From Geothrix sp. (GTDB taxonomy: Bacteria; Acidobacteriota; Holophagae; Holophagales; Holophagaceae), in NCBI RefSeq assembly GCF_020622065.1, contig NZ_JAHRYQ010000001.1:930001-994000 (forward strand): DNA of 64,000 bases, in the 5' to 3' direction. The translations under genes were made by a program, and so were the position numbers. The notes below the pieces were generated by a model. It had not been told where the DNA came from. It did no database searches and worked only from the letters and a program-made list of their open reading frames with translations. Each line of letters starts with the position of its first letter. The stretch's first letter is position 1. Shown here piece by piece: positions 4,961 to 63,437 of the stretch.

Positions 4961-5064
4961 GGAACCCCAGCATCGCGCAGGAGGAGCCGGGGGGGAAGGG
5001 CGCACTCCGTGGTAAGGTTGAGCATCTTCTTATAGGCTTTCAGTTTCCCCGAGAGGAACAACCC

Positions 5065-14791: not shown

Positions 14792-15657
14792 GCCTGGAAC
14801 CGCGTCGGCGGCGCCTCCAGGCGGAGGTCCGCTCCGGTGACGGGATGCTGCAGCCCCAGCCGCCAGGCATGAAGCCAGAGGCGATCCGAGGCCCCACCTC
14901 CGTAGAGGCTGTCACCGAGGATGGGGCGGCCCAGGTGCGCGAGGTGGACGCGGATCTGATGGGTGCGGCCCGTGTGGATGCGCGCCACGATCCAGTGCCC
15001 GGGCAGGAGCCCGGCGGTTTCCTCCGAGGTGGCGGGGCGGAAATCCGTGCGGGCGGATTTGGGGTCGATGAGGTCGCCTTCGCAGCCGAAGCGGCCGGGG
15101 TCGGCCCCCCGCAGGCGACCGATGGGGGCCTCCACGGTGCAGGCCTCCAGGGGTGCGGAGATCCGGGCGAGGTAGAGCTTTTCCAGGTCCCGGCCCGCGA
15201 AGGCGGCGGCCAGACCCTTGTTGGCCTTCGGATCCTTGGCAAGCACCAGCAGGCCCGAGGTGCCCTGGTCGAGGCGGTGGTGCAGGAACAGGTTCAGGTC
15301 CGGCCGCTGGGTCTTCAGCAGGGCCAGCAGGTCGTGGCGGTCCGTGGCCCAGGTGCCCTGGGTGGCGATGCCCGCGGGCTTGTCCACGGCCAGGATCCAG
15401 GCGTCCTCGAACACCACGGGGATGGCGGTGGTGGGGACCGGGGGCAGGTCGGGATCGAAGGCCACGCGGACTTCCGTTCCGGGCTTGATGAGCTTGCCCG
15501 CCACTTTCACACGCTTGCGGTCCACCTGCACTCCGCCCAGCTTCAGGGCCTCCCGCGCCGCCCGCCGGGACAGCTCCGTGCGCTTCGCGATGAGCTGATC
15601 CAGGCGCAGTTCGGCGTCTTCGGGGTCGGCGGTGAAGGTCCATTTGCGCAGCGTCAT
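14788..15657 (-). CDS. RluA-family 23S rRNA/tRNA pseudouridine synthase
   Basis: The 289-residue protein has an N-terminal S4 RNA-binding domain (about 15-75) and the RluA catalytic motif HHRLDQGTSG, whose Asp attacks the uridine base. The VDKPAGIATQG segment is also typical. It isomerises specific uridines in rRNA or tRNA; the target (RluC, RluD or another class) cannot be decided. It is the first gene of a two-gene operon with the lipid kinase and is divergent from the large C45-type hydrolase across an 86-bp gap containing a striking inverted repeat. Confidence 0.92.
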   Translation of the reverse strand: MTLRKWTFTADPEDAELRLDQLIAKRTELSRRAAREALKLGGVQVDRKRVKVAGKLIKPGTEVRVAFDPDLPPVPTTAIPVVFEDAWILAVDKPAGIATQGTWATDRHDLLALLKTQRPDLNLFLHHRLDQGTSGLLVLAKDPKANKGLAAAFAGRDLEKLYLARISAPLEACTVEAPIGRLRGADPGRFGCEGDLIDPKSARTDFRPATSEETAGLLPGHWIVARIHTGRTHQIRVHLAHLGRPILGDSLYGGGASDRLWLHAWRLGLQHPVTGADLRLEAPPTRFQA

Positions 15658-15676
15658 GGTTCCAGACTAACTGGTG

Positions 15677-15711
15677 CGCCAAATTGCCTCAAAAAGCGAG
15701 GCAATTTGGCG
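15677..15711. repeat. Perfect 14-bp inverted repeat in a divergent intergenic region
   Basis: The arms 15677-15690 and 15698-15711 are exact reverse complements around AAAAAGC. The element is AT-rich compared with its surroundings and lies 19 bases upstream of the rluA-type start and 32 bases before ATG 15744. Its place between divergent genes suggests an operator or a 5' UTR hairpin rather than a terminator; no T-run follows on either side. Confidence 0.75.
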
Positions 15712-15743
15712 ATGGGTTTGGCATGCTGGGGGCGGAGGCTCCC

Positions 15744-18700
15744 ATGATCCGAAGGCTTTGTGTTGGGCTGGTGATGGCCGTGGCGGTCCAGGCCGCCGCA
15801 TCCGATCTGCCCGTGTCGGGCTGGACGCTGAAGCCGGGCACCACGGCGACGGTGGCGGACCTGCGCCTCGTGGCGGCCGCGGCGGGATCGGAGGCCACGC
15901 TGGCCTCGGCCCCCGTGGCACTGAAGGTCGGCGAGCTGTACCGCCTGAGCGCCACCATCCGCACCGAGGGCGTGAAGGCGGATGCCCTGGCGCGCTATCC
16001 CACCGCCCTGGGCGCCTGTCTCTCCATGGAGAGCTTCCCCTTCACCAACGCCTCACAGAGCGTGGCCGGCAGCTCGGAGCGGAAGGTCTCACTGCTGTTC
16101 CTGGCCACCAGCTCCACCGACCGCGTGCAGCTGCACCTGGGCCGCAACGGCAAGGCCACGGGCGCTGCGGCCTTCAGCGGCATCAAGCTCGAAAAGGTGG
16201 AGGACATCACCGCCTTCATCCCCCTGCAGACCGTTCGCTGGGCGGGCAAGGGCTTCCGCTACGAGATGGGCGGCTGGACCTTCCTGCACATCGAAGGGGC
16301 GCCCTATGCCCGGGGCCGCCAGCACGGTGAGCTCATGGCCGACGAGATCGTGCGCTACATGACCAAGCTCGGTGTGCTGAAGAACGCGGCGGATCCCGTG
16401 CGCGGCTGGGCCGACCAGCGCCAGACGGCGGACGCCCTCTTCTTCCGCAAATACGATGTGGAATTCCTGGAGGAGATGAAGGGCATCGCCGACGGCGCCG
16501 TGAAGGCCGGGGCAAAGTTCAGGGGCCGGGACCTCGACCTGCTCGACATCGTGACGCTCAACAGCGCCGTGGACATGAGCTCGCTGCAGGACGGCCTCAC
16601 CCACGCCCCGAACCCCCTCACGGGCCGCACCTTCATGACCGGCGACGACGAAGTGGACAAGGGCGGGAAGGGCGACCACTGCTCCTCCTTCGTGGCCACC
16701 AAGGGCGCCACCAAGAGCGGCCGCTTCCTCTTCACGCAGATGTTCATGTGGAACGGTTACACGGGCACCGAGTGGAATGTGATGCTGGATGTGGTGCCCG
16801 AGAAGGGCCACCGCATGGTGATGCAGACCTTCGCGGGTGGCATCCACAGCGGCACCGACTGGTACCTCAACGCCACGGGCCTGGTGATGGGTGAGACCAC
16901 GGTGGGGCAGACGCCCTTCAACCCGGATGGGACACCGCAGAGCAACCGCATCCGCAAGGCGGCCCAGTACGCCTCCAGCATCGACGAGGCCGCGGCCATC
17001 CTCTTCAAGCAGAACAACGGCCTCTACACCAACGACTGGACCATGGCCGACGCCAAGACCGACGAGGGTGCCTGCTTCCTGCTGGGCACCGAAAAGACCA
17101 GGATGTGGCGCACGGGCACGAAGGGCAAGGCGGCGGACACCCCGGGCAACCACCGGGACTTCATCTGGGCCAACAACAACAACCGCGATCTGGAGGTTCG
17201 CAGCGAGTACGGCGCGAACCCCGAGAACGCCCCGGCGGACCTGGCCTTCAACACCTGGAACCGCGACATCGCCTTCCAGGAAGTCTTCAAGACCTACGGC
17301 CGCACCGGCTTCGACATCGACATCGCCACGCGCGTCATGGCCACCAGCCCCATCAACCGCCCCCACGCCTGCGACGCCAAGCTCACCACCGCCGAGATGG
17401 CCGAGAAACTCGTCTTCATCGCCCACCAGGGCAAGACCACCCAGCGCGAGAAGCTCGTGGGCGGGCGCTGGATCGCCGACCTGCCGGGCGCCACGCCCCA
17501 CCTGACCCATGGGTACACGGCGTTCAGCCCCATCTGGGTGACCGCGAAGCTCCAGGCCGCCCGGGCGGCCTGGAACCCGGAAAAGGCGGTGAAGGCTGCG
17601 CCCGTGCCGGAAGTCGGTGGCGTGAAGGAGGCATTCAGCTTCGACGCGAAGGGACTCTGGACCGGAACGGTCAAGCCGGCCTCGGATGCGGAGAACTGGT
17701 TCATCAGTGCCTCGGCGGCCTACTGGCAGCAGATGAAGAACCTTCCCGCCGCGCCGGCCAAGGCCTTCGAGACCCAGGGCGCCGCCCTGGCGGATCTGAA
17801 CACCCGCCACCTCTGGCTGCAGGCCAAGGAGGGCGCCAAGGCGCCCCTGGCCACCACCACGGACTACGACCGTTACGGGGCCTACCAGATCCCCCGCATC
17901 CGCGGCGTGTTCGCCCTGCACCAGCTGCGGCTGCACCTGGGCAACGCCACCTTCGCCAAGGCCATGCAGGCGGTCCACACCCGCTTCAACGGGAAGTCCG
18001 CCCGCACCGCGGACCTCCTGAAGGCGCTCTCTGAGGCCGCCGGAAAGAATGTGGCGCCGATCCTGAGCCCCTGGCTCGAGCGCGCCGACCTGCCGGCCCC
18101 CAAGGTCCAGGCCCGGGTCGAAAAGGCCGGCGAAGCCTACGAAGTGAAGGTGGATCTCGAGCAGACGGGCTCTGCCTATCCCTTCGTGGCTTTCGTGAGC
18201 CTGGAGACGGAGAAGGGCTCGCGATTGGAGCGCGTCGAAGGCAAGGCCGGCAAGGCCAGCTTCACCTTCCACAGCGAGGCCAGGCCCACGCGGCTGGTCT
18301 TCAATGCGGGGAACGACATCCCCCTGGCCCGCGCCAACTTCTGGGTGCCGGGCAATGTGCTGGACGACTGGAGCGCCACGCGCCTGGTCTACGGGACCGG
18401 CCGAGAGGTGGAGGCCCAGCGCACCCTCGCCTTGACCTACCGGGATGCCCTGGCCGACAACATGACCGAGGTGCTGCTGCCCACCCAGGCCGACGCGGAG
18501 ACCGGCGAATCCGATCTGGCCGCCAGCGACTTGATCATCTTCGGAGGTCCCGCCGACAACGGGCTCACGGCCCGCCTCCAGGCCGCGGGCAAGCTGCCCT
18601 TCGAGGCCGGGGCCGGCTGGTTCAAGTGGCAGGGCCGCACCTACGGACGGCCCGACGACGGTCTCTTCGCCGCCTTCCCCAACCCCTGGAACCCGAAGCG

Positions 18701-51246: not shown

Positions 51247-52497
51247 TCAGACTGGATCGGCCTCCGGTGCGTCGAGGCGCCTCCGCCCCCGGGTGAGGGT
51301 GAATTCCCCCAGCATCATAGGTACGGCGGCCTTGAGCATGAGGGTGAAGACCAGGAAGCCGATGGCGAAGATGCCGGCGGCCACGGCGACCTCGGTGTAG
51401 GAGGGACGGTAGACATAGATCTCCCCCAGCGCATCCGGCGTGAGGCCGGGGATGATGAGCCCCATGCCCTTCTCGATGTAGACGCTGGCATAGATCAGGA
51501 CACAACCCAGGTTGAGCAATGTCCAGTTGGTGCGGAACCGGGGCACGAGGAAGAGGATGAAGGCGGCCAATCCGCAGAGGATCGAGGCCCAGGCGAAGGG
51601 CACGAGGGTGGTGTGGCCTTTGAGGCCGAACAGCAGGTACTGGAAATACACCATGTGCTCAGTACCGGAGTAGAGCTCCTTGAAAGCCTCGGCGGCCGTC
51701 AGGAACAGGTTGAAGCCCATGGTGTAGGCCATCAGCTCCGCGATCTTGAAAATGGCCTCGTCCTTGATGCTGAGCTTGGTGGTCTTCCGCAGCACCTGGA
51801 GGAGGATGAGGAGGATGGCGGGTCCCGAGCAGAAGGCCGACGCCAGGAACCGCGGCGCAAGGATGGCGGAATTCCAGAAAGGCCGCGCTGCCAGGCCGTT
51901 GTAGAGGTAGGCCGTCACGGTGTGGATGCTCACGGCCATGGGAATGGAGAGCAGCACGAGGGGCAGCACGAGCTTCTTCACATAGTGCCTGTCTGTGTAA
52001 GCGCAGAAGAGCAGGTAGGTGACCACGAACCAGTTGAGGAGGAGGTAGAGGTTCAGCACGATCACATCCCAGGCCAGCATGGACTGGGGCCAGTTCAGGC
52101 GTCCCACCAGCGGGATGATGTGCCAGAAGCGGTCGGGCCGGCCGATGTCCACCATCACGAACCCGAGGCACATGATGAGGGCGCTGATGGCGAGCATCTC
52201 GCCCAGGATGGTGATCTCCTTGATGGGCTCCCAGTCGTAGACATAGGCGGGGATGACCAGCATGATGGCCGCCGCTGCCACGCCCACCAGGAAGGTGAAG
52301 TTGCCGATGTAGAAGCCCCAGGACACCTGGTCCCGCATCCGCGTGACGATCAGCCCCTCGTTGACCTGGCCGATGTAGGCGCCGGTGCCGATGGCGATGA
52401 GCAGCAGCAGGAAGGCAATCCAGGCGTAGTAGTAGCGGTTGCCCCGGGTGATGAGTCGGAGCGTGTCGGTGATGAACTGCCAGAAATTCCGCAGCAT
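51247..52497 (-). CDS. NrfD/DsrP-type membrane quinol-interacting subunit
   Basis: The 416-residue protein has about ten membrane helices and matches the NrfD/PsrC/DsrP family. The family exchanges electrons between the quinone pool and iron-sulfur or heme partners. YYYAWIAFLL, WGFYIGNFTFLVGVA and IGRPDRFWHI are characteristic stretches. In this operon it lies with a four-cluster ferredoxin-like subunit and a tetraheme cytochrome, the arrangement seen in DsrOPJ-like and related quinone-linked complexes. No sulfate-reduction genes are in the window, so the electron partner is open. It begins four bases after the ferredoxin stop. Confidence 0.9.
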   Translation of the reverse strand: MLRNFWQFITDTLRLITRGNRYYYAWIAFLLLLIAIGTGAYIGQVNEGLIVTRMRDQVSWGFYIGNFTFLVGVAAAAIMLVIPAYVYDWEPIKEITILGEMLAISALIMCLGFVMVDIGRPDRFWHIIPLVGRLNWPQSMLAWDVIVLNLYLLLNWFVVTYLLFCAYTDRHYVKKLVLPLVLLSIPMAVSIHTVTAYLYNGLAARPFWNSAILAPRFLASAFCSGPAILLILLQVLRKTTKLSIKDEAIFKIAELMAYTMGFNLFLTAAEAFKELYSGTEHMVYFQYLLFGLKGHTTLVPFAWASILCGLAAFILFLVPRFRTNWTLLNLGCVLIYASVYIEKGMGLIIPGLTPDALGEIYVYRPSYTEVAVAAGIFAIGFLVFTLMLKAAVPMMLGEFTLTRGRRRLDAPEADPV

Positions 52498-52501
52498 GGC
52501 C

Positions 52502-53434
52502 TCAGACTCCGTAGAAATAGAAGAAGTTGGGTTGGGTATTCAGTTCTTCCTTGAGCTTGAAGACGCGCTTGTTCTCGAGGACATAGCGAATCTCGCTGGT
52601 CTTGTCGAGCAGGTTGCCGAACTTGCGCGAGCCCGTGGGGCAGATCTCCACGCAGGCCGGGTAGAGGCCCTTGCGGGTGCGCTGGATGCAGAAGGTGCAC
52701 TTCTCGACGACGCCCTTGGGCCGCGGGCGGTTGCCGAGGTAGTGTGTGTCGGGATTCACCTGGTCCGGGGGCAGGTTCGGTTCGCCCCAGTTGAAGTGGC
52801 GGGCACCGTAGGGACAGGCGGCCATGCAATAGCGGCAGCCGATGCACCAGTTGTAGTCCACGACCGTGATGCCGTCCTTCTCGCGCCAGGTGGCGCCCAC
52901 AGGGCAGACCTTCACGCAGGGCGGCTTCTTGCACTGCTGGCACTGGACCGGCATGTAGAAGTGGCCTTCGCGGGGAACCTCCGCGGGATCGTAGTACTGA
53001 TCCGCGTGCTGGAGGTTGACGCCCTCCTCCTTCTCCAGCTCAAGGACGCGGATCCACTGCACTTCCGGGCTCCGAGACTGGTTGTTCTCCTTCACGCAGG
53101 CATGAACGCAGCGGCGGCATCCGATGCAGCGGCTGAGATCCAGGGCGTAGCCGAAGATCACCCCGGGCAGGGGCGCTGTGTTGGTGACCTTGACCTCACG
53201 GCCGTACTTCTCCTTGTATTCCCTCTCGAGGCGGGCGATGACATCGCGCACTTCATCCTTCGACAGCTCGCGGAAGTTGTGCTGGAGGAACTCCTCGTGG
53301 CTGAGCTTTCCGCACCCCGTGAGGGCTGTGGCCACGGCCGCCACGGCCGTGCCGAGGAACTCGCGGCGGCTGCCGCCGCCCGGGGTGGATGAGGCGCAGC
53401 CCTCGGCGGGCTGGATGGGTTCTTGGGCCGTCAT
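52502..53434 (-). CDS. Tat-exported ferredoxin-like subunit with four 4Fe-4S cluster motifs
   Basis: The 310-residue protein starts with a twin-arginine signal (SRREFLG) followed by LTGC, so it may be a Tat lipoprotein. Cysteine groups in CIGCRRCVHACVKEN, CQQCKKPPCVKVCP, CIGCRYCMAACP and CTFCIQRTRKGLYPACVEICP fit four cubane clusters, as in DsrO/NrfC/PsrB-type subunits. It would carry electrons between the cytochrome and the NrfD-type subunit on the periplasmic side. ATG 53434 overlaps the cytochrome stop by four bases. Confidence 0.92.
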   Translation of the reverse strand: MTAQEPIQPAEGCASSTPGGGSRREFLGTAVAAVATALTGCGKLSHEEFLQHNFRELSKDEVRDVIARLEREYKEKYGREVKVTNTAPLPGVIFGYALDLSRCIGCRRCVHACVKENNQSRSPEVQWIRVLELEKEEGVNLQHADQYYDPAEVPREGHFYMPVQCQQCKKPPCVKVCPVGATWREKDGITVVDYNWCIGCRYCMAACPYGARHFNWGEPNLPPDQVNPDTHYLGNRPRPKGVVEKCTFCIQRTRKGLYPACVEICPTGSRKFGNLLDKTSEIRYVLENKRVFKLKEELNTQPNFFYFYGV

Positions 53435-54015
53435 CGGGCACCCCCCTTCCGGGCTTGGATCTGTTCGGGCCGGGTGGGCGGAGGCATGGGCTTCAGTGCC
53501 TGGAACCGCGGCGAATGGGGGTTGTGGCAATTAACGCAGAGCAGGTACTGCTTGGCGCCGTTCCAGCTGCCGGTGCGCTTGCCGTGAACGCCCACGCGCC
53601 AGTCGCGGAACTTGTCGCCATGGCACTGGCCGCATAGCTGGTAGGAGGTGTCGAACCCGATCCGCTCTCCGCTGGCCAGGCGCAGGCGGTCCCTATTCGC
53701 CGGGTCGTGACAGTCCAGGCACCAGCGGCTTTCCGGGCCGTGGTTGAGGACGATGTCCCCGTGCATGCCCGTGAGTTCCCGGCGCTGGGGGTTCACCTTC
53801 ATGGACTTGCCGTCGTGGCAGGAAGAGCAGGGGAAAATTCCCTCGCTGAAGGGAGGCTTGGGCACCTGGATGCCCTCCTGGGCCACTGCGCCAAGCGTCG
53901 GAAGAGGCGCGGGTGGCGGGGCGGGAGGGTCCGCCAGGGCGGCCAGCCCCAGGGTGACCAGGAGTCCCGCCGTCCGGGCGGGGAGCGAGAGGCGACGGAC
54001 CAGGAGTTCTTTCAT
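53431..54015 (-). CDS. Periplasmic tetraheme c-type cytochrome
   Basis: The 194-residue protein has a signal peptide (about 1-28) and four CxxCH heme sites: CSSCH (63-67), CLDCH (99-103), CGQCH (128-132) and CVNCH (160-164). Spacing and accompanying histidines resemble NapC/DsrJ-like or tetraheme doubled-CxxCH cytochromes. It is the electron entry or exit of the NrfD complex in the periplasm. ATG 54015 overlaps the DUF2339 gene stop by four bases. Confidence 0.93.
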   Translation of the reverse strand: MKELLVRRLSLPARTAGLLVTLGLAALADPPAPPPAPLPTLGAVAQEGIQVPKPPFSEGIFPCSSCHDGKSMKVNPQRRELTGMHGDIVLNHGPESRWCLDCHDPANRDRLRLASGERIGFDTSYQLCGQCHGDKFRDWRVGVHGKRTGSWNGAKQYLLCVNCHNPHSPRFQALKPMPPPTRPEQIQARKGGAR

Positions 54016-55766
54016 CGGTTCACCTTCAGCAGGCGGGGCGCGAGGATGAGCGTCGTCCCGAAGAACATGAAGGCCAGGAAGAGGGTCAGCGGACGACCCA
54101 CGGCCAGGTCTTCGAACAGGAATTTCAGGGCGGTGAGGACGAGCATCGGGTAGACCAGCCATCGCAGTTCAAGGACGGGGAGCCGGCGCCCGAGCCAGGC
54201 CAGGGCGATGGCCAGGGCCGACAGCACGCCCGTGCGGGCCACGGCCAAGGTGCCGGGGTCGGGGGCGCCCCGGGCGAGGGCCCGACAGCAGCCCCAGATC
54301 GTCAGCGCCCCGAAACCCGCGGCGGTCAGCGCCCCGAGCACCAGCACGGGGGCCCGCATGCGGGCCGCGATGGAATCCGGGGGGCGGCGCAGCAGGAACA
54401 GCGCCAGGGAGGCCGCCAGGGCCGCCAGGCTGGCGAAGCCGGCCAGGGGCAGGCGGGCGGCGGCCCCGGCAGGATCCAGGAAGGCGCGGAGGGACCAGAG
54501 GGCGAGCCCCGAGGCGACGGACGAGGCGATGAGGTAGATCGCGCCCTGCAGGATGAGGACGGCCCTGCGGAGGCGCAGCCCCGCCACCATGGCGGCCAGT
54601 CCCAGGGCACCGCTGAAGACGGCGAACAGGGGCTGTGGCAAGACGATGGGCCCCCCCAGCAGGAGGAAGATGAGGGCGAGGAAGGTGAAGAAGTTGAAAT
54701 TGGCGCGCGTCTCCTCCTGGTCCTCCGCAAAGGGGGCCGCGGCGGCATAGCAGCCCACGCCCGCCAAGGAAACGCCACCCCCGAGCAGGGCCGCGCCCGA
54801 TCCCGAGGTCAGGGCGATGCGGACGGCGCCCCCGAAGCCCACCAGCAGGACGATGGCGGTCTGCACGGATTCAAAGGCATTGATCACCCGGCGCCGCTGG
54901 AGCATCCGCCCCGCGAAGCTGCCGATGTAGAGGGCCGCCAGGGCCAGGGCCAGGGCCATGGCGCGGTCCGGGGAGATCCCGCGGTACGCCTCGGGCGGCC
55001 CCCCGGGCCAGGCGGCCAGCAGGGCGAGGATCAGCACGCCGAGATCCGCGGCGAGGGCGGTGGGCCAGCGCAGGCCGTGCCACCGCCGTCCGTAGGTGAG
55101 CCACAGGGCCGCCACCCCCAGCAGGAGGAACGCCGCGGCGAAGGGCTCGATGGCCTGGCGGATCGCCATCATGGCGAAGCCCGCCCCCAGAGAGGCGAGG
55201 GTGGCGATCCAGATGATGGGCTGGAGGTCCCGCCGCCAGGCCACGGCGCCATGCAGACCGGTGACAGCGAGGAGGAGGAGGGCCGCGGGACCGGGCGCCA
55301 GGATGCCGAACCGGGTGGTCGATTCCACAATCAGCGGATAGGCGATGAGGATGGAGGCGAGGGCGTGGAAGGCGGAATCCAGGGGGTGCTTGCCGCGGTC
55401 GGCGAGAAGCGCCCAGCTCAGGGCGTAGGCCAGGCCCAAAGCCATGCCCCAGCCGCGAGGGAGGGTGCCCGCGTCCACGAGGGCCCGGATGAAGGTGGCG
55501 CCGCCCAGGATGAGGCAGACGCGGCCGATGAGCCCCACGAAGTGGGCCGGGCTGGGTAGGGCGGGTGGGGTGGGCAGGGTGGGGTGGGATTCCAGGGCCA
55601 GGACCACCGGGGTCCCGGCGGGTTCGGGCGCTGAGGACTCCAGGGCCGAAACCCGGACCTCCAGGTGCTGGACCTGCTCCGCCAGGACAGCCAGGCGTGC
55701 CTCAAGGGAACTCGACAGGCCTTCGGCTGCAGCGGGTTTGAGAGGAGAAACCTCGGTCCTGGACAT
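54012..55766 (-). CDS. DUF2339-like polytopic membrane protein
   Basis: The 584-residue protein begins with a soluble coiled segment (about 15-50) and then has about sixteen or more hydrophobic helices rich in Ala and Leu. The layout (N-terminal coiled coil, then uninterrupted membrane helices, FEDLAVGRPL near the end) matches the DUF2339 family. Function is unknown. It is the first gene of the NrfD operon and overlaps the cytochrome gene by four bases. A link to the respiratory complex is suggested by context only. Confidence 0.72.
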   Translation of the reverse strand: MSRTEVSPLKPAAAEGLSSSLEARLAVLAEQVQHLEVRVSALESSAPEPAGTPVVLALESHPTLPTPPALPSPAHFVGLIGRVCLILGGATFIRALVDAGTLPRGWGMALGLAYALSWALLADRGKHPLDSAFHALASILIAYPLIVESTTRFGILAPGPAALLLLAVTGLHGAVAWRRDLQPIIWIATLASLGAGFAMMAIRQAIEPFAAAFLLLGVAALWLTYGRRWHGLRWPTALAADLGVLILALLAAWPGGPPEAYRGISPDRAMALALALAALYIGSFAGRMLQRRRVINAFESVQTAIVLLVGFGGAVRIALTSGSGAALLGGGVSLAGVGCYAAAAPFAEDQEETRANFNFFTFLALIFLLLGGPIVLPQPLFAVFSGALGLAAMVAGLRLRRAVLILQGAIYLIASSVASGLALWSLRAFLDPAGAAARLPLAGFASLAALAASLALFLLRRPPDSIAARMRAPVLVLGALTAAGFGALTIWGCCRALARGAPDPGTLAVARTGVLSALAIALAWLGRRLPVLELRWLVYPMLVLTALKFLFEDLAVGRPLTLFLAFMFFGTTLILAPRLLKVNR

Positions 55767-56056: not shown

Positions 56057-56617
56057 ATGCCTGTGTTGCACCTTCGCCGCGGAATCCTCCTCGCCTGCCT
56101 GCTCGCCCTGGCGGTGAACCTGGGTGCCCAGGGCCTGACGCGGGATCTGACGGTGGTGCTGCTCCGTCACGCCGAGCGCCAGTCGCTCTTCGATGCCGAT
56201 TCGCCCCTGGCCGAAGCCGGTCTGCGCCGAGCCCAGGCCCTGGTGCCTTTGCTGGAGGGCTTCCGGCCCGCGGCGCTCTACACTTCGGACCTGCGGCGCA
56301 CCCAGCAGACCCTGGCTCCGCTGGCGGCGAAGCTCGGCATGGTCCCGCTGGTGCGATCCAAGGACGGGAGCGAAGCCCTGGCCGCCGAGCTCCTCCGCGA
56401 TCACCGGGGCCGCACGGTGATCGTCTGCTGGCACCACGACCTGGTGAAGAAGGTGGCCCGGGGGCTGGGGGTGAAAGGGCCTCTGCCCTACTGGACTCTC
56501 GACACCTATGACCGCCTCTGGATCGTGCGGGTGCCCGCCCAGGGGGCAGTCACGCTGGAGGAGCGGATCCAGGAGCCGTCAGCGCCAGCTGCCGCCGGGG
56601 CGGCCCAGGGCCGCTAG
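56057..56617 (+). CDS. Exported histidine phosphatase-family protein
   Basis: The 186-residue protein has a signal peptide (about 1-24, ending near AQG) and a phosphoglycerate-mutase-like phosphatase domain. The catalytic LRHAER (RHxE-type) motif lies near residue 37, TSDLRRTQQT follows, and the second His is in WHHD. The substrate is unknown; similar periplasmic proteins include the lipid-A phosphatase Ais and SixA-like enzymes. ATG 56057 follows GGAG. Its last 39 bases overlap the end of the convergent FAD oxidoreductase gene. Confidence 0.85.
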   Translation: MPVLHLRRGILLACLLALAVNLGAQGLTRDLTVVLLRHAERQSLFDADSPLAEAGLRRAQALVPLLEGFRPAALYTSDLRRTQQTLAPLAAKLGMVPLVRSKDGSEALAAELLRDHRGRTVIVCWHHDLVKKVARGLGVKGPLPYWTLDTYDRLWIVRVPAQGAVTLEERIQEPSAPAAAGAAQGR

Positions 56618-58186
56618 CACCTCTTCCGCGGCCCGGAGACCGTGGTCCTGGGCCTCCTCGAAGAGGGCCAGGCCGCTGAGCTCCGTGTGCGCGAAGTGGA
56701 TGGCGCCGAAGGGGCGGGACAGGCTGAGGAAGGCCGGATCCCAGAGCAGCCCAGGCTCCGGGCGCACCATGGCATGGCCCCAGCGCATTCCATCGAGGCG
56801 CGTGACCAGGCCCTTCAGGTCGGGGTGGGCTGGCCGCAGGTCATCCATCACCATGCGCGCGCAGGCGGGCCAATCCATGGCGCGAAGGCGCGCCCGCTCG
56901 GCCTCACTATCGGCTCCGGCAAAGGGACGGTACCAGGTCCAGACCGTGGGCCCATGGTCCTTCAGGCTCTGGTGGGTGGCCACCACATAGCCCAGGGCCT
57001 CGCTGTCCCGCAGGACATTGTCCCAGGCCAGGGGAAAGCCGGTCTCCTTGGGCCGCGCCCGGAGCGTGAGGTTGGCCACCAGCCAGGGCGCGTTGCGGAT
57101 GCGGGTCGAAGCCGGGCGCGCGGAGGCGAAGCCTTCGATCACATGACGGGCCACATGCTGCGGCCCGGCGAAGATCACCCGCTGCGCCTTCCAGCCGAGG
57201 CGCCGCTGGTTCGCCGCATCCCAGACCGTGACGAGGAGGCCGTCCTTCTCCGCGCGGATGGCGGTGGCCATCGTGCCGCAACGCAAGCGGTCTCCGCAGG
57301 CCCTGCGCAGGTGGTCGATGAGGAAGCCGTTGCCCTGGGGCCAGGTGAGGAGGGGGCGCGAATCCTCGCCGGGGCCCTGTTTGCGGGCGGCAAAGTAGAA
57401 GAGGCCCGCCCAGGCGCTGGTGGTCTCCAGATGGGAACCGTAGTCGTCCCGGCAGGCGTAATCCAGCAGCCAGCGCAGACGCGGCGAGGAGAGCCCCTGC
57501 TGGTCGAGCCAGGCGGAGAAGGGGAGGCCATCCAGGGCGCGGGCCTCCGGCGCATCCGAGCACCGGGAGCGGGGAATGCTGAAGGCAGGGCGGCCCCGGG
57601 CATCACGGAAGGCGGCCCAGCGGTCCACCTCGCGGAAGAAGGCGTGGTACTGGCGCTCATCCTCAACGCTGGCGCCCGCCCGCAGGTAGAGGCCCTCCCA
57701 CCACTGGCCGTAGGCGAAGATGCGCTCCTCGGGCGCGCGAACGGTGGCTTCTTCGGCGAAGCGCGGATCGCCTTTCGCGTCGAAGCCCTCCAGGACGCCG
57801 CATTCGTCCAGCAATCGCAGCACGGCATGGTTGCCGCGGTCGGGCACGGGCAGGTAGTGGGCGGCCCAGGGGAAGGCACTCACATGGTTGCGGCCGGACC
57901 TCGAGGTGCCACCGGGCTCCGGCTCCAGCTCCAGCACCCGGAAATCATCCAGGCCACCGCCGGCCAGCCGCCAGGCGGCGCTGAGCCCCGCCACGCCGCC
58001 CCCCACGACCAGCACGGAGACGGGTTCGAAGCGCTCGGGATCGGGGAAGGCGCCGCCCCGCAGCCAATGGCCCAGGGGAAGATCCGGCCCCACGAGTTCA
58101 CCTTGGAACGGGAACTCGGGCTTCCTGCGGCAGGCCAGCGACATCGCCGACAGGGTCCCGGCGACAAGGAAATCGCGGCGCTTCAT
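56579..58186 (-). CDS. Tat-exported FAD-dependent amine oxidase/protoporphyrinogen oxidase-like protein
   Basis: The 535-residue protein starts with a twin-arginine signal (MKRRDFLVAG) and SLAC, indicating export and possibly lipid anchoring. A dinucleotide-binding VVGGGVAGLSAAWRL and the GGTSRSG loop are typical of flavin amine oxidase and protoporphyrinogen-oxidase families. It follows the spermidine-synthase-like gene by ten bases, so the substrate may be a polyamine or a polyamine-modified compound in the periplasm; this is inference. Its 3' end overlaps the convergent phosphatase gene by 39 bases. Confidence 0.82.
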   Translation of the reverse strand: MKRRDFLVAGTLSAMSLACRRKPEFPFQGELVGPDLPLGHWLRGGAFPDPERFEPVSVLVVGGGVAGLSAAWRLAGGGLDDFRVLELEPEPGGTSRSGRNHVSAFPWAAHYLPVPDRGNHAVLRLLDECGVLEGFDAKGDPRFAEEATVRAPEERIFAYGQWWEGLYLRAGASVEDERQYHAFFREVDRWAAFRDARGRPAFSIPRSRCSDAPEARALDGLPFSAWLDQQGLSSPRLRWLLDYACRDDYGSHLETTSAWAGLFYFAARKQGPGEDSRPLLTWPQGNGFLIDHLRRACGDRLRCGTMATAIRAEKDGLLVTVWDAANQRRLGWKAQRVIFAGPQHVARHVIEGFASARPASTRIRNAPWLVANLTLRARPKETGFPLAWDNVLRDSEALGYVVATHQSLKDHGPTVWTWYRPFAGADSEAERARLRAMDWPACARMVMDDLRPAHPDLKGLVTRLDGMRWGHAMVRPEPGLLWDPAFLSLSRPFGAIHFAHTELSGLALFEEAQDHGLRAAEEVLAALGRPGGSWR

Positions 58187-58196
58187 GATCGTGGGC

Positions 58197-59741
58197 TCAC
58201 GACCACCGCCGCCACTCCCGGGTGTAGAGGTGGACGAGCACCTGGTTGTCGAGGCGGTTCACCTCCACGGGCACGCGGTCCATGTCCCTGGGGAAGGCGA
58301 ACATGGCGGCCGTGGCCTCGTCAGACAGGTGGCGCAGCCCCGGCAGCACGCGGGTGGGCACCTCGAAGTCGCGTTTCGAGGCCAGGGCGAAGCCCCACAC
58401 GCCGAAGGAGGGCACGGCCAGGTGGTAGGGGCGGACCTTCAGCCCCGAGGCCTCCATGGTGGCGGCGATGCACCAGAAGGATTGCCGGGCCATGAGGGGC
58501 GAAGTGCTCTGCACGGCCACGAGCGCGTCATCGGCCAGGCGGCGCTGGAGGATGCGGTAGAACCGGGAGGTGTAGAGCTTCCCCAGGGCGTAGGTGTTGG
58601 GATCCGGGAAATCCACGAAGGCCAGGTCGAAGGGGGGGCCGGGGGTCTCCTGCAACCAGACCATGGCGTCGGCATTGACGACTTTGACTCGGGGATCGTC
58701 CAGGGCCGCGCCATTAAGTTGACGCACCATGACCTGGTTCCGGGCCATGTCGGTCATGGCCGGATCCAGATCCACCAGCACCACCTCCTGCACGGAGGGG
58801 TGCTTCAGCACTTCCCGCACGGCCAGGCCGTCGCCTCCGCCGCAGATCAGGATGCGCTTCGCATCGGGCCGGGCGCCGAAGGCCGGATGCACGAGGGCTT
58901 CGTGGTAGCGGTACTCGTCGGCTGATGAGAACTGCAGATTGCCGTTGAGGAAGAGCTGGAAGCTGCCCCGGCCGCGGGTGAGCACGATGCGCTGGTAGGC
59001 ACTGTCCTTGGCGTAGACGATCTCGTCGGCGAAGATCTCCTCCTCCACGGCCAAGGTGAACTTCCCGGCGAAGACCAGCCCCACGGCCAGCAGGGCCATC
59101 ACCACGGCGCAGCGCAGGCGGATCATCCGGGTGGGGCCGAGCTGGGACTGCAGCAGGTGCGTGGACCAGAGGCCCACGGCCGCGTTCAGCAGGCCGAAGA
59201 GGAGGCTGGTGCGCACCAGGCCCAGCTTGGGCATGAGCAGGAGCGGGAAGAGCAGGGAGGCGAAGAGGGCGCCGATGTAGTCGAGGGTGAGCACACCCGC
59301 CACCAGATCCTTGAAGCGCACCTGATCCTTGAGGATGCGCATCAGGATGGGGATTTCCAGGCCCACGAGGGTGCCCACGGCCATCACCACGCCGTAGAGC
59401 ACCACCCGGAAGGCGTGGGTGTGGGCGAAGGCCTGGAAGAGGATGGGGGCCGAGAAGCCGCCCACCAGCGCCACCGCCAGCTCCAGGTCCACGAAGCGCC
59501 GGGCCAGGCCGCGCTGGAGGAACTTCGACAGCCAGGACCCCAGCCCCATGGCGCTGAGGTAGACCCCGATCACCGTGGAGAACTGCGTGACGGAATCCCC
59601 CAGGAGGTAGCTCGACAGCGTCCCCGCCACCAGCTCATAGATCAGCCCGCAGCTGGCGATGAGCAGCACACTGATGAAGAGCAGGGGCGCCTTCAGCGTC
59701 GGCTGCGACACCTCGCCGGTGGGCTGTGGCGCATCACCCAT
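58197..59741 (-). CDS. Membrane-anchored spermidine-synthase-like aminopropyltransferase
   Basis: The 514-residue protein has about seven membrane helices (20-225) fused to a spermidine-synthase domain (240-500). The latter has the Y-H-E stretch DEYRYHEALVHPAF, the nucleotide loop GGGDG (301-305), VDLDP and the catalytic-Asp segment VDFPDP (D377), where ordinary SpeE has DSxDP. Ordinary SpeE lacks membrane helices. It would transfer an aminopropyl group from decarboxylated S-adenosylmethionine near the membrane. No adenosylmethionine decarboxylase gene is adjacent. ATG 59741 overlaps the DUF350 gene by eight bases. Confidence 0.88.
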   Translation of the reverse strand: MGDAPQPTGEVSQPTLKAPLLFISVLLIASCGLIYELVAGTLSSYLLGDSVTQFSTVIGVYLSAMGLGSWLSKFLQRGLARRFVDLELAVALVGGFSAPILFQAFAHTHAFRVVLYGVVMAVGTLVGLEIPILMRILKDQVRFKDLVAGVLTLDYIGALFASLLFPLLLMPKLGLVRTSLLFGLLNAAVGLWSTHLLQSQLGPTRMIRLRCAVVMALLAVGLVFAGKFTLAVEEEIFADEIVYAKDSAYQRIVLTRGRGSFQLFLNGNLQFSSADEYRYHEALVHPAFGARPDAKRILICGGGDGLAVREVLKHPSVQEVVLVDLDPAMTDMARNQVMVRQLNGAALDDPRVKVVNADAMVWLQETPGPPFDLAFVDFPDPNTYALGKLYTSRFYRILQRRLADDALVAVQSTSPLMARQSFWCIAATMEASGLKVRPYHLAVPSFGVWGFALASKRDFEVPTRVLPGLRHLSDEATAAMFAFPRDMDRVPVEVNRLDNQVLVHLYTREWRRWS

Positions 59742-59952
59742 GGATCGCGGCGGCGATGATGAGGCTGATGCCAAGGATGAGGCAGCCGAGGACGATGCCG
59801 AGGGCGGTGTTCTGGTCATCCTCCATCTCCTTGCGGAGGGAGAAGGGGAGGACCTTCACGAGCACGAGCCACACCAGGCCGAGGATGACGAGGCCCAGGA
59901 CGGAGAAGACGGTGGCGACGAGAAGCTGATGCAGCAGCTGGTTCGTGATCAT
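59734..59952 (-). CDS. DUF350 (YjfL-like) small membrane protein
   Basis: The 72-residue protein is two membrane helices (about 10-33 and 50-70) with a charged linker LRKEMEDDQN, the pattern of DUF350. In E. coli the family member YjfL is in a cluster with a glutathionylspermidine-synthase-like gene, and DUF350 recurs beside polyamine genes. ATG 59952 overlaps the stop of the upstream small gene by one base (TGATG) and has GGAGG six bases before it. Function is unknown. Confidence 0.85.
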   Translation of the reverse strand: MITNQLLHQLLVATVFSVLGLVILGLVWLVLVKVLPFSLRKEMEDDQNTALGIVLGCLILGISLIIAAAIHG

Positions 59953-60131
59953 CACTTACCTCCGTGGAAGCCGTTGTTGTGCAGGAAGGTGCGGTAGGCG
60001 CCTGGCGTCTGGCGGACGCTGGGCGGCAGATCGGCGCGGCGGCGCTGGCCGAAGAACTCCCGACCGAAGAAACCGTTGGCGATCATCAGGCTGAAGCCAC
60101 CGCCGAGAAAGAGCAGATAGAGGATCCGCAT
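59952..60131 (-). CDS. 59-residue membrane protein of the DUF4178/DUF350 operon
   Basis: This short protein has one N-terminal hydrophobic helix (YLLFLGGGFSLMIANGFF) and a basic, soluble tail of about 35 residues. It is placed by exact one-base overlaps at both ends (TGATG with DUF4178 before it and DUF350 after it), which is strong support for a real gene. No family was recognised. It could be a subunit or regulator of the complex formed by its neighbours. Confidence 0.78.
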   Translation of the reverse strand: MRILYLLFLGGGFSLMIANGFFGREFFGQRRRADLPPSVRQTPGAYRTFLHNNGFHGGK

Positions 60132-62155
60132 CAGCTGCCTCCGCTGTTGGGTGCGTACATGCTTTCCTGCCAGCGCCGGCTTTCGAAGGCCGCCAGGCGG
60201 AACACCATGAGCAGGGGCCCCACGAGGATGGCCACCAGGGCGAGGCCGGGGTAGAGCCACCGCATCACGCCCTGGCGCAGCTGCACCTCGATGGTGCGGA
60301 CTGGAGGCACAGGGCCATCCCACTGGGGGGCCAGGCGCAGCACATAGGTACCTGGAGGCACTGCGCTCAGGAAGACGGTCTGGGCCTGCGCCCCCTCGGA
60401 CCAGGACTCACCGCCATCCACGCCGTGATACCAGCTGGACTCCACGAGGAAGAGCTCCGCCACACCGCTGGTCTCACTCACCAGCGCACCCTCCAATCCG
60501 ACCCAGCTGTTGTTGACGGGGGCGCTGAGGGTGACGGCCAGGTTCCGGTAGCCGTTCTTGATCTCGATGGGATCGGAGAAGAAGACGGGCTCCTGGGCTT
60601 CGCCGGAGGGGGCGTTCGTGGCCGGGACCTGGGCTGGTGCCGCGGGCCTGCGGGCGGGGATGGTCTTCCGGGGGGCCTCCACAGCCGTGGGCTGGAGGTG
60701 GGCCAGCTCGAACAGATCGAGCCGCCGGCGGAACAGCTCCTGGTTGCGGTGGGTCATGGATTCCACCATCACCCCCACCAGCAGGAGGCCCAGGGCGCCC
60801 ACCACCCAGAGGGCGGACTTCGCCAAGGCGACCTTGTGGGGGTTGGGCTGGAAGGATGCGATGCCGGTGGGTGGAGGAGGGGCCCCGTGGAGCTTGAAGG
60901 CCTTCCAGACCGCCTCGGGCTCGAGGTAGGTGGAGAGGCTCCAGTTCACTTCCTCGCCACCGCCTTGGTGCGCCTGCCGCTCGCGGGTGAGGCTGCGGGG
61001 CGGGGCGACGAACTCGGTGACCTGCACCCGCTCACCCTGCTCGACCTGCCAGTAGAACTCGCCCCACACGCCCTCGACGACGGCTTCCACATCCTGGAAT
61101 CGCCGCCAGTCCGCGCCCAGGGCCGACAGGTTCTTCTGCCCGTCGCGGGCCTGGGGGAGGTCGCCGGACGCCACGGCGACGGCTACGCTCCAGTGGCCGT
61201 CGCTCTGCACCAGCCAGCGGAAGCCCTGCTGGCCGTCCAGCAGCAGGTATTCGGTCCAGGGATAGGCGGTGTCCTCAAGGGTGCAGCTGCGCCGCAGCTG
61301 GCCGATGCAGGTGACTTTTTCGCCGTCCAGCAGGCCCTCGGCGCCCAGGGGGATCACCACCTCCTGATGGGGCTGCTTCAGGCTCTTCAGGAAGGCCAGC
61401 TTGCCGTTCTCCGCGGACAGCAGGCTGCCGCAGCTGGGGCAACCCACGCGCTGCGTCTGGTCCGGTGCCCGCAGGGCCAGGGCGCCCCCACACTTGGGGC
61501 AGTTGAGGCTCTGGGCGCCCAGCTTGGGAGTCCTGCGCGTACCCCCTTGGATGCCGAGGTCGGACAGCGGCACCTCCCGGCCCAGGAAGAACAGCGGAGG
61601 CTCATCGCTGTAGTCCAGGGTGGCGAAGGCGCCGTGGCGACCGGAGAGATCTGCGAAGCGGTAGGTGGCTCCGGGTTCCACGGTCCAGGGGATCTCGCCC
61701 TCGGCGCTGTGGAAGGTGGCCTCGCTGAGCTCGCCCACGGTCCAGAGGCCGTCGGGCCCGAGGTCGGCGAGGCCACCGGCCTGCAGGCCCTCGAAGGGGG
61801 GAAGGGGGCCATGCGGAGCCTGCGTGAAGGTCAGGTAGAAGCGGCCCTGGGCCTCCGCCAGCCAGCCCCATCGGCCATCGTCGAGCGCGAGGTACCACTC
61901 GTCCCACACGCCGCCCAGGGGATGCTTCAGCTGCACCCGGCCGGCCAGCGTGAAGGCTCTGCCCGTAAAGGTCCCCGAGGCGCCCAGGCCCAGAGGCGAG
62001 CCCGTATCCACGAGGTCGGCCACCTTTCCGATCAGCTCAGGGTCGCGGTCCCGCCGCGCGGCCAGGGCCTTGCAGTAGGAGCAGACGGCCACCATGGTCC
62101 CGGGCCGGAAGCTCAGGGCGGCACCGCAGCTGGGGCAGGAGGCGAGTGTGCTCAT
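60131..62155 (-). CDS. DUF4178 protein with two zinc ribbons and C-terminal membrane helices
   Basis: The 674-residue protein begins with a zinc ribbon (CPSCG with CSYCK) and a DUF4178 domain, WDEWYLALDDGRWGWLAEAQG being typical. A second ribbon (CPKCGG with CPSCGS) and a second DUF4178-like domain (WTEYLLLDGQQGFRWLV) follow. Two membrane helices lie at about 440-460 and 635-655, separated by a beta-rich, probably periplasmic domain. Cytoplasmic domains would face the zinc-ribbon side. Function is unknown; the operon context is polyamine synthesis. ATG 62155 lies 25 bases after the aminotransferase stop, and its ribosome-binding site is weak. Confidence 0.83.
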   Translation of the reverse strand: MSTLASCPSCGAALSFRPGTMVAVCSYCKALAARRDRDPELIGKVADLVDTGSPLGLGASGTFTGRAFTLAGRVQLKHPLGGVWDEWYLALDDGRWGWLAEAQGRFYLTFTQAPHGPLPPFEGLQAGGLADLGPDGLWTVGELSEATFHSAEGEIPWTVEPGATYRFADLSGRHGAFATLDYSDEPPLFFLGREVPLSDLGIQGGTRRTPKLGAQSLNCPKCGGALALRAPDQTQRVGCPSCGSLLSAENGKLAFLKSLKQPHQEVVIPLGAEGLLDGEKVTCIGQLRRSCTLEDTAYPWTEYLLLDGQQGFRWLVQSDGHWSVAVAVASGDLPQARDGQKNLSALGADWRRFQDVEAVVEGVWGEFYWQVEQGERVQVTEFVAPPRSLTRERQAHQGGGEEVNWSLSTYLEPEAVWKAFKLHGAPPPPTGIASFQPNPHKVALAKSALWVVGALGLLLVGVMVESMTHRNQELFRRRLDLFELAHLQPTAVEAPRKTIPARRPAAPAQVPATNAPSGEAQEPVFFSDPIEIKNGYRNLAVTLSAPVNNSWVGLEGALVSETSGVAELFLVESSWYHGVDGGESWSEGAQAQTVFLSAVPPGTYVLRLAPQWDGPVPPVRTIEVQLRQGVMRWLYPGLALVAILVGPLLMVFRLAAFESRRWQESMYAPNSGGS

Positions 62156-62180: not shown

Positions 62181-63338
62181 CTAGACCAAGGGGAAGATGC
62201 GGTCGAGCCCGTCGCGGAAAAGGGGTTCCGGCGTCAGGAGGCTCAGGACCAGGTGCCCGTCGCCGGGCAGGTCGAAGAACGAGCCCGGGTGGACGAGGAC
62301 CGAGGCCGCTTCCAGCAGGCGCAGGGCGCAGGCCTCGTCCCCGTCCACGGCAGGGCGGCGCAGCAGGACGGACCAGCCGCCCTCGACGGGCAGCCGGGAC
62401 AGGCGGGGATGGGTCGCCAGCCCGGCATCCAGCGCGGCGAGGTTGGCGCGGAGGCGCCCGAGCACCTGAGCTCGGATTCCGGGGGCCAGCGCCAGGAGCG
62501 TCGGCGCCGCGGCCTGCGCGGGAGAGGACACGGAGAGATATTGATCTGCCAGAAAAGCGAGGGCCTCCAGGCTCGCGGCGGTTTGGGGGCCTCGCACCGC
62601 GATCCAGCCGAGCTTCAGCTGCGGCAGGGCCGCCACCTTGCTGAGGCCCGACAGCAGGAAGACCGGGCAGGGCGGCTGGGCATCGGCCAGGGCCGTGGGA
62701 AGGTGATCCTCCGGGGCCTCGAGCGGGTAATCCACGAAGACCTCGTCCACCAGGAGGGCCAGGCCGCGCCGGGCGCAGAGCTCCGTGAGTCCCTGCCATT
62801 CCGGTTTGGACAGGAAATGTCCCGTGGGATTGTTCGGATTCACCACGATGACGGCGCGGGTGCGGGGACCCACCGCGGCTTCCAGAGCCCCCAGATCCAG
62901 ATGCCAGCGGTCATGGAAGTAGGACGGTACGGGCCGCGCTTGCAGACCCTCAAGCCGGGCCAGCCAGTCGAACAGCGGATAGCTGGGACTGGGCACCAGC
63001 ACCTCGTCACCGGGATCACCCAGCAGCTTGAACAGCAGTCCGTAACCTTCGCTGGTGGAGGCCGTGAGCAGCAGTTCCTCCGCTCGGAGGCCGTGGCCAT
63101 GGTGGGCCGCGATGGCCTCCCGGGCGGTCCGTGTTCCTTGGGGATCGGGATCGTAGGCCAGCACCGAGGGCGCGGACAAGGCCGCGCGGATCTCGGCTTC
63201 CGGGTAGGCGAAGCCGCAGCGCGTGGGGTTCGACACCGTGAGATCGAGGATCGGATGGCCCGCCGCGCGCAGGCGACCCAACGCAGCCGACAGGGCATTC
63301 GGATCGAATCCGGACGGCAGGCGGGAGGAGAGGCGCAT
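62181..63338 (-). CDS. Class I/II PLP-dependent aminotransferase
   Basis: The 385-residue protein has the aspartate-aminotransferase fold. Seen are SNPTRCGF near the start, NPNNPTG (residues contacting the substrate carboxylate and PLP) and the PLP lysine in LSGLSKVAALPQLKLGW. Substrate preference cannot be read; similar enzymes act on aromatic or branched amino acids or as MalY/PatB-type lyases. ATG 63338 was chosen. It lies upstream of the DUF4178 gene on the same strand with a 25-base gap, so it may be the first gene of that operon. Confidence 0.87.
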   Translation of the reverse strand: MRLSSRLPSGFDPNALSAALGRLRAAGHPILDLTVSNPTRCGFAYPEAEIRAALSAPSVLAYDPDPQGTRTAREAIAAHHGHGLRAEELLLTASTSEGYGLLFKLLGDPGDEVLVPSPSYPLFDWLARLEGLQARPVPSYFHDRWHLDLGALEAAVGPRTRAVIVVNPNNPTGHFLSKPEWQGLTELCARRGLALLVDEVFVDYPLEAPEDHLPTALADAQPPCPVFLLSGLSKVAALPQLKLGWIAVRGPQTAASLEALAFLADQYLSVSSPAQAAAPTLLALAPGIRAQVLGRLRANLAALDAGLATHPRLSRLPVEGGWSVLLRRPAVDGDEACALRLLEAASVLVHPGSFFDLPGDGHLVLSLLTPEPLFRDGLDRIFPLV

Positions 63339-63437
63339 GGAATCAGGGTAGACGAACTGCCCTTCGGCCGACGGGAAGGGCCGGGACGGCCTGATCTTGT
63401 CTTTCCATGGATAATCGGGAAAACCCAGGAGGCTCCC

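Follow-up and report, generated by a model that had tools for sequence, protein, structure and literature searches.

Membrane-fused spermidine-synthase proteins occur together with S-adenosylmethionine (AdoMet) decarboxylase (AdoMetDC) in several bacterial phyla, and this pair is reportedly the subject of Li et al. 2019 (Biochem J 476:2579), in which a role outside polyamine synthesis is said to be described and an acceptor other than putrescine to be argued for; such fusions are also reported not to replace the spermidine synthase of Escherichia coli. In the portion of PMC11237479 available to us, which cites that study, an operon group linked to CesT/Tir and PspA comprises a fusion of seven transmembrane helices (7TM) with a spermidine synthase, a DUF350 protein, a novel lipoprotein and a DUF4178 protein, as in Shewanella AAN56744-AAN56747; the same text writes of 'aminopropylation of other substrates' and leaves the acceptor open. 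A second setting for DUF350 is that of the ATP-grasp peptide-spermidine ligases (E. coli YjfC and YgiC; Pederick et al. 2023, as cited in the accessible parts of PMC12568646 and PMC12270671), where the genes for a DUF350 protein (YjfL) and a lipoprotein (YjfM) adjoin that of the enzyme, and the polyamine is joined to a peptide. Here we analyse 64,000 nucleotides of Geothrix sp. (contig NZ_JAHRYQ010000001.1, positions 930,001 to 994,000; the window hereafter), which carry a five-gene run for a DUF4178 protein, a 59-residue protein (S59), a DUF350 protein, a 7TM-fused aminopropyltransferase (APT) and a flavin adenine dinucleotide (FAD) protein with a twin-arginine translocation (Tat) type signal. 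We propose that the last lysine of S59 would be the aminopropyl acceptor of the fused APT, and give this reading a probability of roughly 0.4.

Results

The last lysine is the only invariant column in the alignment of S59. Homologues were gathered upstream of an APT by an iterated profile, and all 50 of their distinct ends terminate in lysine and never in arginine (GGK, 44; SGK, 2; HGK, SHK, YHK and RHK, one each). As background, 1258 other called genes of those loci, many of them mutually related, end in lysine in 4.5% and in arginine in 12.4% of cases. S59 is membrane-bound by prediction and has no Pfam or NCBIfam match at E up to 0.1. Lysine also ends APT partners dissimilar to S59, namely the lipoproteins of about 240 aa in the acidobacterial loci L061 and L062, a 510-aa lipoprotein of Alteromonas (L125), and further proteins of Tritonibacter (L131), Novosphingobium (L124 and L128) and Ensifer (L130). 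The homology search left 19 APT loci without S59, made up of contig ends, length-limited frames and PspA-type, plasmid and fragment loci, and in two of them (L097 and L098) S59 is present by tblastn. When the small open reading frame (ORF) beside DUF350 was picked automatically, 44 of 49 picks ended in lysine; the other five (L086, L061, L072, L127 and L130) were rejected as not being the small protein, a lysine-ended one lying elsewhere in the locus.

A Shine-Dalgarno-like motif lies within the last 15 bases of 37/51 S59 genes, a GGGGG run in 7 of the other 14, and in many loci the stop codon of S59 touches or runs into the start of DUF350. Shine-Dalgarno nucleotides are thus a fair explanation of the two glycines, at least in Acidobacteriota, and a reading of Gly-Gly as a ubiquitin-like signal was set aside as confounded by this site. 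The lysine is nevertheless kept in seven S59 genes that have neither motif nor run (L053, L067, L072, L060, L120, L126 and L127), the first of which has a separate Shine-Dalgarno site for DUF350 downstream of the S59 tail, and in seven other partners likewise devoid of the motif (L061, L062, L125, L130, L131, L124 and L128). Its codon alternates between AAG (32) and AAA (19).

As a control we took 18 near-full-length GSP_synth loci of the ATP-grasp type, PF03738 being matched in 30 genomes in all. The lipoprotein-like protein upstream of the enzyme ends there in glutamate (13), serine (3) or glycine (2), and in lysine in 0/18; at one locus (L145) the ORF nearest the ligase ends in arginine and overlaps the lipoprotein-like ORF that was counted. 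E. coli YjfM and YgiB, beside genes annotated as peptide-spermidine ligase, both end in Gly-Gly (0/2 lysine). In the sampled loci the partner's final residue varies with the type of enzyme, lysine being found beside the transferase and other residues beside the ligase. One genome (G149) carries both APT and the ATP-grasp enzyme, and the window genome gave no PF03738 match at E up to 0.001. In thirteen acidobacterial loci (L135, L137 and L139-L149) the lipoproteins upstream of the ATP-grasp gene have a conserved terminus of another kind, Gly-Glu preceded by an RGGFG-like stretch.

The genes also travel together. Five queries were run against 297 genomes of Acidobacteriota, 52 of which hold a full-length APT (NF002956 over its cut-off); with G053, whose gene is split over two contigs, there are 53 APT genomes. 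The S59 profile matched in 48/53 of these and in 0/244 others (E < 1e-9), a match at E 0.006 in a genome without APT (G036) being treated as chance. The flavoprotein was likewise found in 48/53 and 0/244 (E < 1e-190), and paralogues of it, at 1e-63 to 1e-88, occur in six genomes without full-length APT. AdoMetDC is present in 52/53 APT genomes against 49/244 others. Fisher values for these co-occurrences take no account of kinship among the genomes and are not used as probabilities. Fifty regions around APTs from survey genomes and 39 named loci were collected, and gene maps were drawn for loci with less than 93% APT identity and a few more. The 50 regions together with the window hold 52 APT copies, of which 44 had enough flank, the window slice being too short to count; neighbours were counted when on the same strand and within 6 kb of the APT. 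Near these 44 stood DUF4178 in 42, S59 in 42, DUF350 in 43, the flavoprotein in 41 and AdoMetDC in 24. Where mapped, AdoMetDC is mostly directly ahead of DUF4178, frequently with a 4-base overlap; it was not near the APT in any Holophagaceae locus examined. Recurrence of this kind is far beyond chance.

Outside the phylum the set lies on Novosphingobium plasmids (Alphaproteobacteria), in a Gemmatirosa plasmid (Gemmatimonadota) and in a Burkholderiales metagenome-assembled genome (L120). Nine of 16 plasmid records were fetched (H1-H5, H8, H9, H11 and H13), one of which (H13, Rhodovulum), an APT fragment without S59, was omitted from the counts. The annotated order in Novosphingobium ES2-1 is SPFH, DUF4178, DUF4178, hypothetical, DUF350, APT, FAD and speD. 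Repeat searches with two other APTs added one new record, from Salinibaculum, and a scan of viral_contigs with the Alteromonas APT as query returned no relative. Two acidobacterial loci (L061 and L062) belong to another operon kind, with a long DUF350; PspA and CesT/Tir genes are present as well at L061. In a further locus (L076, genome G074) two APTs face each other; since one is followed by the flavoprotein and the other by the CesT/Tir and PspA clusters c43 and c42, the two operon kinds meet there. In 18/44 copies the gene after that of the flavoprotein encodes a multi-TM protein of some 350 aa (c7), e.g., at 4240-5325 (-) of L050 and 14733-15761 (+) of L107; this protein has no Pfam match and a single weak NCBIfam match below cut-off, and may also belong to the pathway. 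A small-protein family (c18), presumably akin to GxxExxY proteins, stands either between DUF350 and APT or between APT and the FAD gene (L093, L046, L113, L119, L042 and L079), its position varying as if it had been inserted more than once.

The APT scores well over the 472-bit cut-off for membrane-fused polyamine aminopropyltransferases and contains the sole Spermine_synth domain of the genome. Among 37 members with pairwise identity below 82%, the residues D275, E276, Y279, H280, E281, G301, G303-G305, D326, D377 and D380 are invariant, and these we take to be the catalytic motifs of spermidine synthases; three acidic residues within membrane helices (E36, E129 and D154) are equally invariant. 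The AlphaFold model, with a predicted local distance difference test (pLDDT) of 90.4, has seven long membrane helices followed by a spermidine-synthase domain that matches 1uir (Z 35.9, root-mean-square deviation (rmsd) 2.7 over 275), the catalytic domain taking up the match lists of the whole-chain search. Fold and motifs both agree with a spermidine synthase, and the acceptor can be read from neither. Mean lysine plus arginine counts are 1.5 at the N-terminus and 0.1, 3.1, 0.6, 3.7, 1.6 and 3.4 in loops 1-2, 2-3, 3-4, 4-5, 5-6 and 6-7, with 1.0 after helix 7. By the positive-inside rule these charges predict an N-terminus inside and a catalytic domain outside the cytoplasm, an orientation that, as a prediction only, agrees with the Tat flavoprotein and the lipoprotein partners.

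The flavoprotein scores 47.3 bits against a PF01593 cut-off of 19.8. In 23 aligned members R3 and R4 are invariant ahead of a hydrophobic stretch, as in Tat substrates, and a cysteine after this stretch is conserved in at least 90%; because of this pair of features the protein looks like a Tat lipoprotein, and we predict that it is exported and lipid-anchored. Its model (pLDDT 85.5) has an amine-oxidase fold, close to MAO-A (Z 27.2, rmsd 4.0 over 420) and to putrescine oxidase (Z 27.2, rmsd 3.8 over 425), in a list near-tied among many amine-oxidase-like enzymes, as well as phytoene desaturase and others, that indicates no substrate. Searched against PDB sequences, the single sequence matched solely in the N-terminal Rossmann part and the profile mostly there. 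Amine oxidases have an O2-activating lysine, and no lysine is found among the flavoprotein columns conserved in at least 90% of the 23 members, so that the protein need not be an oxidase that uses O2.

The initial annotation had proposed five genes joined by overlaps of 1, 1 and 8 bases and a gap of 10 bases, and the minus-strand ORF coordinates bear this out (spacings of -1, -1, -8 and +10 from the DUF4178 gene to the flavoprotein gene; Table 1). Its naming of the DUF4178, DUF350, fused aminopropyltransferase and flavin amine-oxidase-like products agrees with matches to PF13785, PF03994, NF002956 and PF01593, the seven helices it gave the transferase are seen in the model, and the export it assigned to the flavoprotein is likewise predicted here from the twin arginine, beside the PF01593 match and the fold. 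A double zinc ribbon in the DUF4178 protein held in part: two CxxC pairs are clear, and the zinc-ribbon Pfam matches fall under cut-off. The condition under which it would have been refuted, a gene set that does not recur in other genomes, is contradicted by the occurrence of the set across Acidobacteriota and in Gemmatirosa and Novosphingobium. The invariant lysine at the S59 C-terminus is not mentioned in it. The DUF350 protein aligns to positions 2-66 of the 133 of the PF03994 profile, hence a half-length form, and is the only match to it in the genome.

Table 1. Operon genes and flanking features, in window coordinates
Feature	Position	Strand	Remarks
DUF4178 protein	60131-62155	-	674 aa; PF13785, 92 bits in two stretches; two CxxC pairs
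S59 (59-residue protein)	59952-60131	-	Single hydrophobic stretch; C-terminal Gly-Gly-Lys; proposed aminopropyl acceptor
Gly-Gly-Lys codons of S59 (GGA GGT AAG)	59955-59963	-	GGAGG doubles as likely Shine-Dalgarno site for DUF350
DUF350, half-length form	59734-59952	-	72 aa; PF03994, 47 bits
7TM-fused aminopropyltransferase (APT, PRK03612 type)	58197-59741	-	514 aa; NF002956, 662 bits
Tat-type FAD protein, amine-oxidase superfamily, probable lipoprotein	56579-58186	-	535 aa; PF01593, 47 bits
Pyridoxal phosphate (PLP) aminotransferase	62181-63392	-	PF00155, 140 bits; starts 25 bases before the DUF4178 gene
Histidine phosphatase	56057-56617	+	PF00300; convergent to the flavoprotein gene, 39-base overlap with its end
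Downstream block	51247-55766	-	Includes a 584-aa membrane protein without Pfam match

Geothrix and Holophagaceae provide the closest named relatives, with APT identity reaching 99%; Geothrix fermentans carries the operon too (L101). The aminotransferase keeps its place upstream of DUF4178 in the printed Holophagaceae maps and not in those of other families, the histidine phosphatase is at the same position in the maps of some Geothrix relatives, and the downstream block is common to many Geothrix maps; in that block the 584-aa protein is followed by ORFs that, by reading only, we take to resemble a cytochrome, an iron-sulfur protein and a membrane protein of the NrfD type.

The source genome (3.35 Mb, 2 contigs) has a single AdoMetDC, on the same contig as the operon and about 0.77 Mb off. 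It also has SpeA (830 bits vs 369) and an agmatinase-like protein under the cut-offs of its models, and because of these two putrescine may be made in it. Within the window's family the same 20/28 genomes hold both full-length APT and AdoMetDC and the remaining 8/28 neither, which suggests that spermidine by this route is not generally needed in the family.

Discussion

An operon that pairs this membrane enzyme with a lysine-ended tiny membrane protein suggests the lysine tail as the missing target of the APT. A spermidine-synthase domain works on a terminal amine carried by a short carbon chain, and the side chain of a lysine at the C-terminus is of this kind. In the mechanism we propose, AdoMetDC, whose gene is unlinked here and lies within or next to the operon in many relatives, would supply decarboxylated AdoMet, and the 7TM-fused APT would move the aminopropyl group not to free putrescine but to the amine on the side chain of the last S59 lysine; related operons would offer as acceptor a lysine-tailed protein or lipoprotein unlike S59. 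A spermidine-like protein tail would arise at the membrane surface, and the Tat-exported flavoprotein would then oxidise or trim it, with DUF350 and DUF4178 as putative membrane and cytoplasmic partners. The side of the membrane, the substrate of the flavoprotein and the benefit to the cell are, like the acceptor, what we infer from this arrangement. That the operon is a dedicated aminopropyl pathway with an acceptor other than free putrescine is probable. More tentatively, it might stand for an undescribed modification, in which an enzyme of the spermidine-synthase type, with its catalytic domain outside the cytoplasm, aminopropylates the final lysine of a dedicated membrane protein or lipoprotein to give a genetically encoded protein polyamine. 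Published polyamine oxidase variants and the GGGGG runs of S59 genes count somewhat against this wider reading. The initial annotation had suggested an envelope pathway that makes, attaches or oxidises a polyamine; the envelope setting and the aminopropyl chemistry fit, and the making of a polyamine now seems less likely than the attachment of an aminopropyl group to an acceptor other than putrescine.

Several observations weigh against the S59 lysine as acceptor. A catalytic domain outside the cytoplasm would need decarboxylated AdoMet to be brought there. The charge split of S59, used for its orientation, is even (18 vs 18, with 14 equal). In a plasmid locus of Burkholderia (L129) APT and FAD genes are present, with no lysine-tailed candidate in its 15 kb. 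A haloarchaeal locus of the DUF2617 type (L163) encodes, upstream of its synthase, a protein that looks exported and ends in isoleucine, and G074 holds an APT-FAD pair without S59. The lysine tails of Ensifer and of L128 count less, since they were taken from a list pre-filtered for a final lysine. Lastly, putrescine is possibly made in this genome, so a spermidine synthase role for the APT is possible.

An alternative is that a membrane lipid or some other small amine is the substrate of the APT, the lysine-tailed protein being an accessory subunit whose last lysine is needed for docking, either to the enzyme or to acidic phospholipids. A membrane-fused enzyme with invariant acidic residues in its helices and a small protein predicted to be membrane-bound would suit this, as would the tie of such operons to membrane structure in the part of PMC11237479 available to us. 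Against it, arginine never replaces the last lysine (50/50 S59) even though it is the commoner last residue in those loci, and the lysine end is common to otherwise dissimilar proteins; we consider this alternative unlikely.

A role as the cell's membrane-placed synthase of spermidine or aminopropylagmatine, with the other genes serving transport and turnover of free polyamines and the lysine tail some other role, draws on the catalytic motifs and fold of spermidine synthases, and on a genome in which SpeA, an agmatinase-like protein and one AdoMetDC are found and a second Spermine_synth domain is absent. Set against this are the tight linkage of the APT to S59, DUF4178, DUF350 and the Tat flavoprotein, the 8/28 family genomes that do without full-length APT and AdoMetDC, and the failure of such fusions to stand in for the E. 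coli spermidine synthase as reported in 2019, so that this explanation is distinctly unlikely. Improbable, too, is that the flavoprotein oxidises the side-chain amine of the lysine tail for crosslinking while the aminopropyl group goes elsewhere: the amine-oxidase fold and the co-occurrence with S59 speak for it, but at L061 and L062, both of the PspA type, lysine-tailed lipoproteins occur with no flavoprotein match nearby, and their genomes (G008 and G164) lack the flavoprotein at E up to 1e-60. That the conserved Gly-Gly-Lys is a mere by-product of the DUF350 Shine-Dalgarno site and start would account for the motifs and overlaps at the S59 end, but is made very improbable by the seven S59 and seven other partners that keep the lysine without such a run and by the alternation of its codon.

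An invariant C-terminal lysine on an otherwise variable partner is a concrete candidate acceptor. If it is indeed aminopropylated, a new lysine modification would be defined, there would be a reason why DUF350 accompanies both the APT and the peptide-spermidine ligases, and a handle would be gained on PspA-linked envelope systems.

The operon kind itself is known; new here, as far as our literature searches show, are the lysine tail and the regular form that contains the flavoprotein and S59 and is without PspA. Those searches yielded no statement of a lysine-tailed acceptor that we recognised, and a prior mention in Li 2019 or Pederick 2023 is possible. With the CesT/Tir-PspA group, as far as the accessible text of PMC11237479 goes, the window operon shares a fused APT, DUF350 and DUF4178 in one operon and a membrane protein or lipoprotein as partner, and the lipoprotein partner of its acidobacterial counterparts (L061 and L062) ends in lysine like S59. 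The window operon differs from that group, on the same text, in its short DUF350, in the 59-residue protein that replaces the lipoprotein and in the Tat flavoprotein as a regular member; PspA and CesT/Tir genes are absent beside it, where the flanks are the aminotransferase and the histidine phosphatase (no search for PspA was made in the rest of the genome). The system of Li et al. 2019 reportedly has the same enzyme pair and a link to DUF350 and is not known to have a named acceptor there, whereas a lysine-tailed protein is proposed here. In the ATP-grasp system, to the extent that the sources available to us describe it, the ligase is unrelated to the APT and would use the carboxyl end, and the lipoprotein tails are glycine, glutamate or serine, not lysine. 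The proposed reaction would be the amine-side counterpart of that joining of spermidine to a carboxyl group, with two unrelated enzymes giving a like tail in the same DUF350 setting. Lysine side chains extended with a polyamine-derived amine are also found in the hypusine of eIF5A and in the silaffins of diatoms; those are made by other enzymes in other organisms, whereas here the modified residue would be the last one of a bacterial membrane protein and the proposed enzyme one of the spermidine-synthase type.

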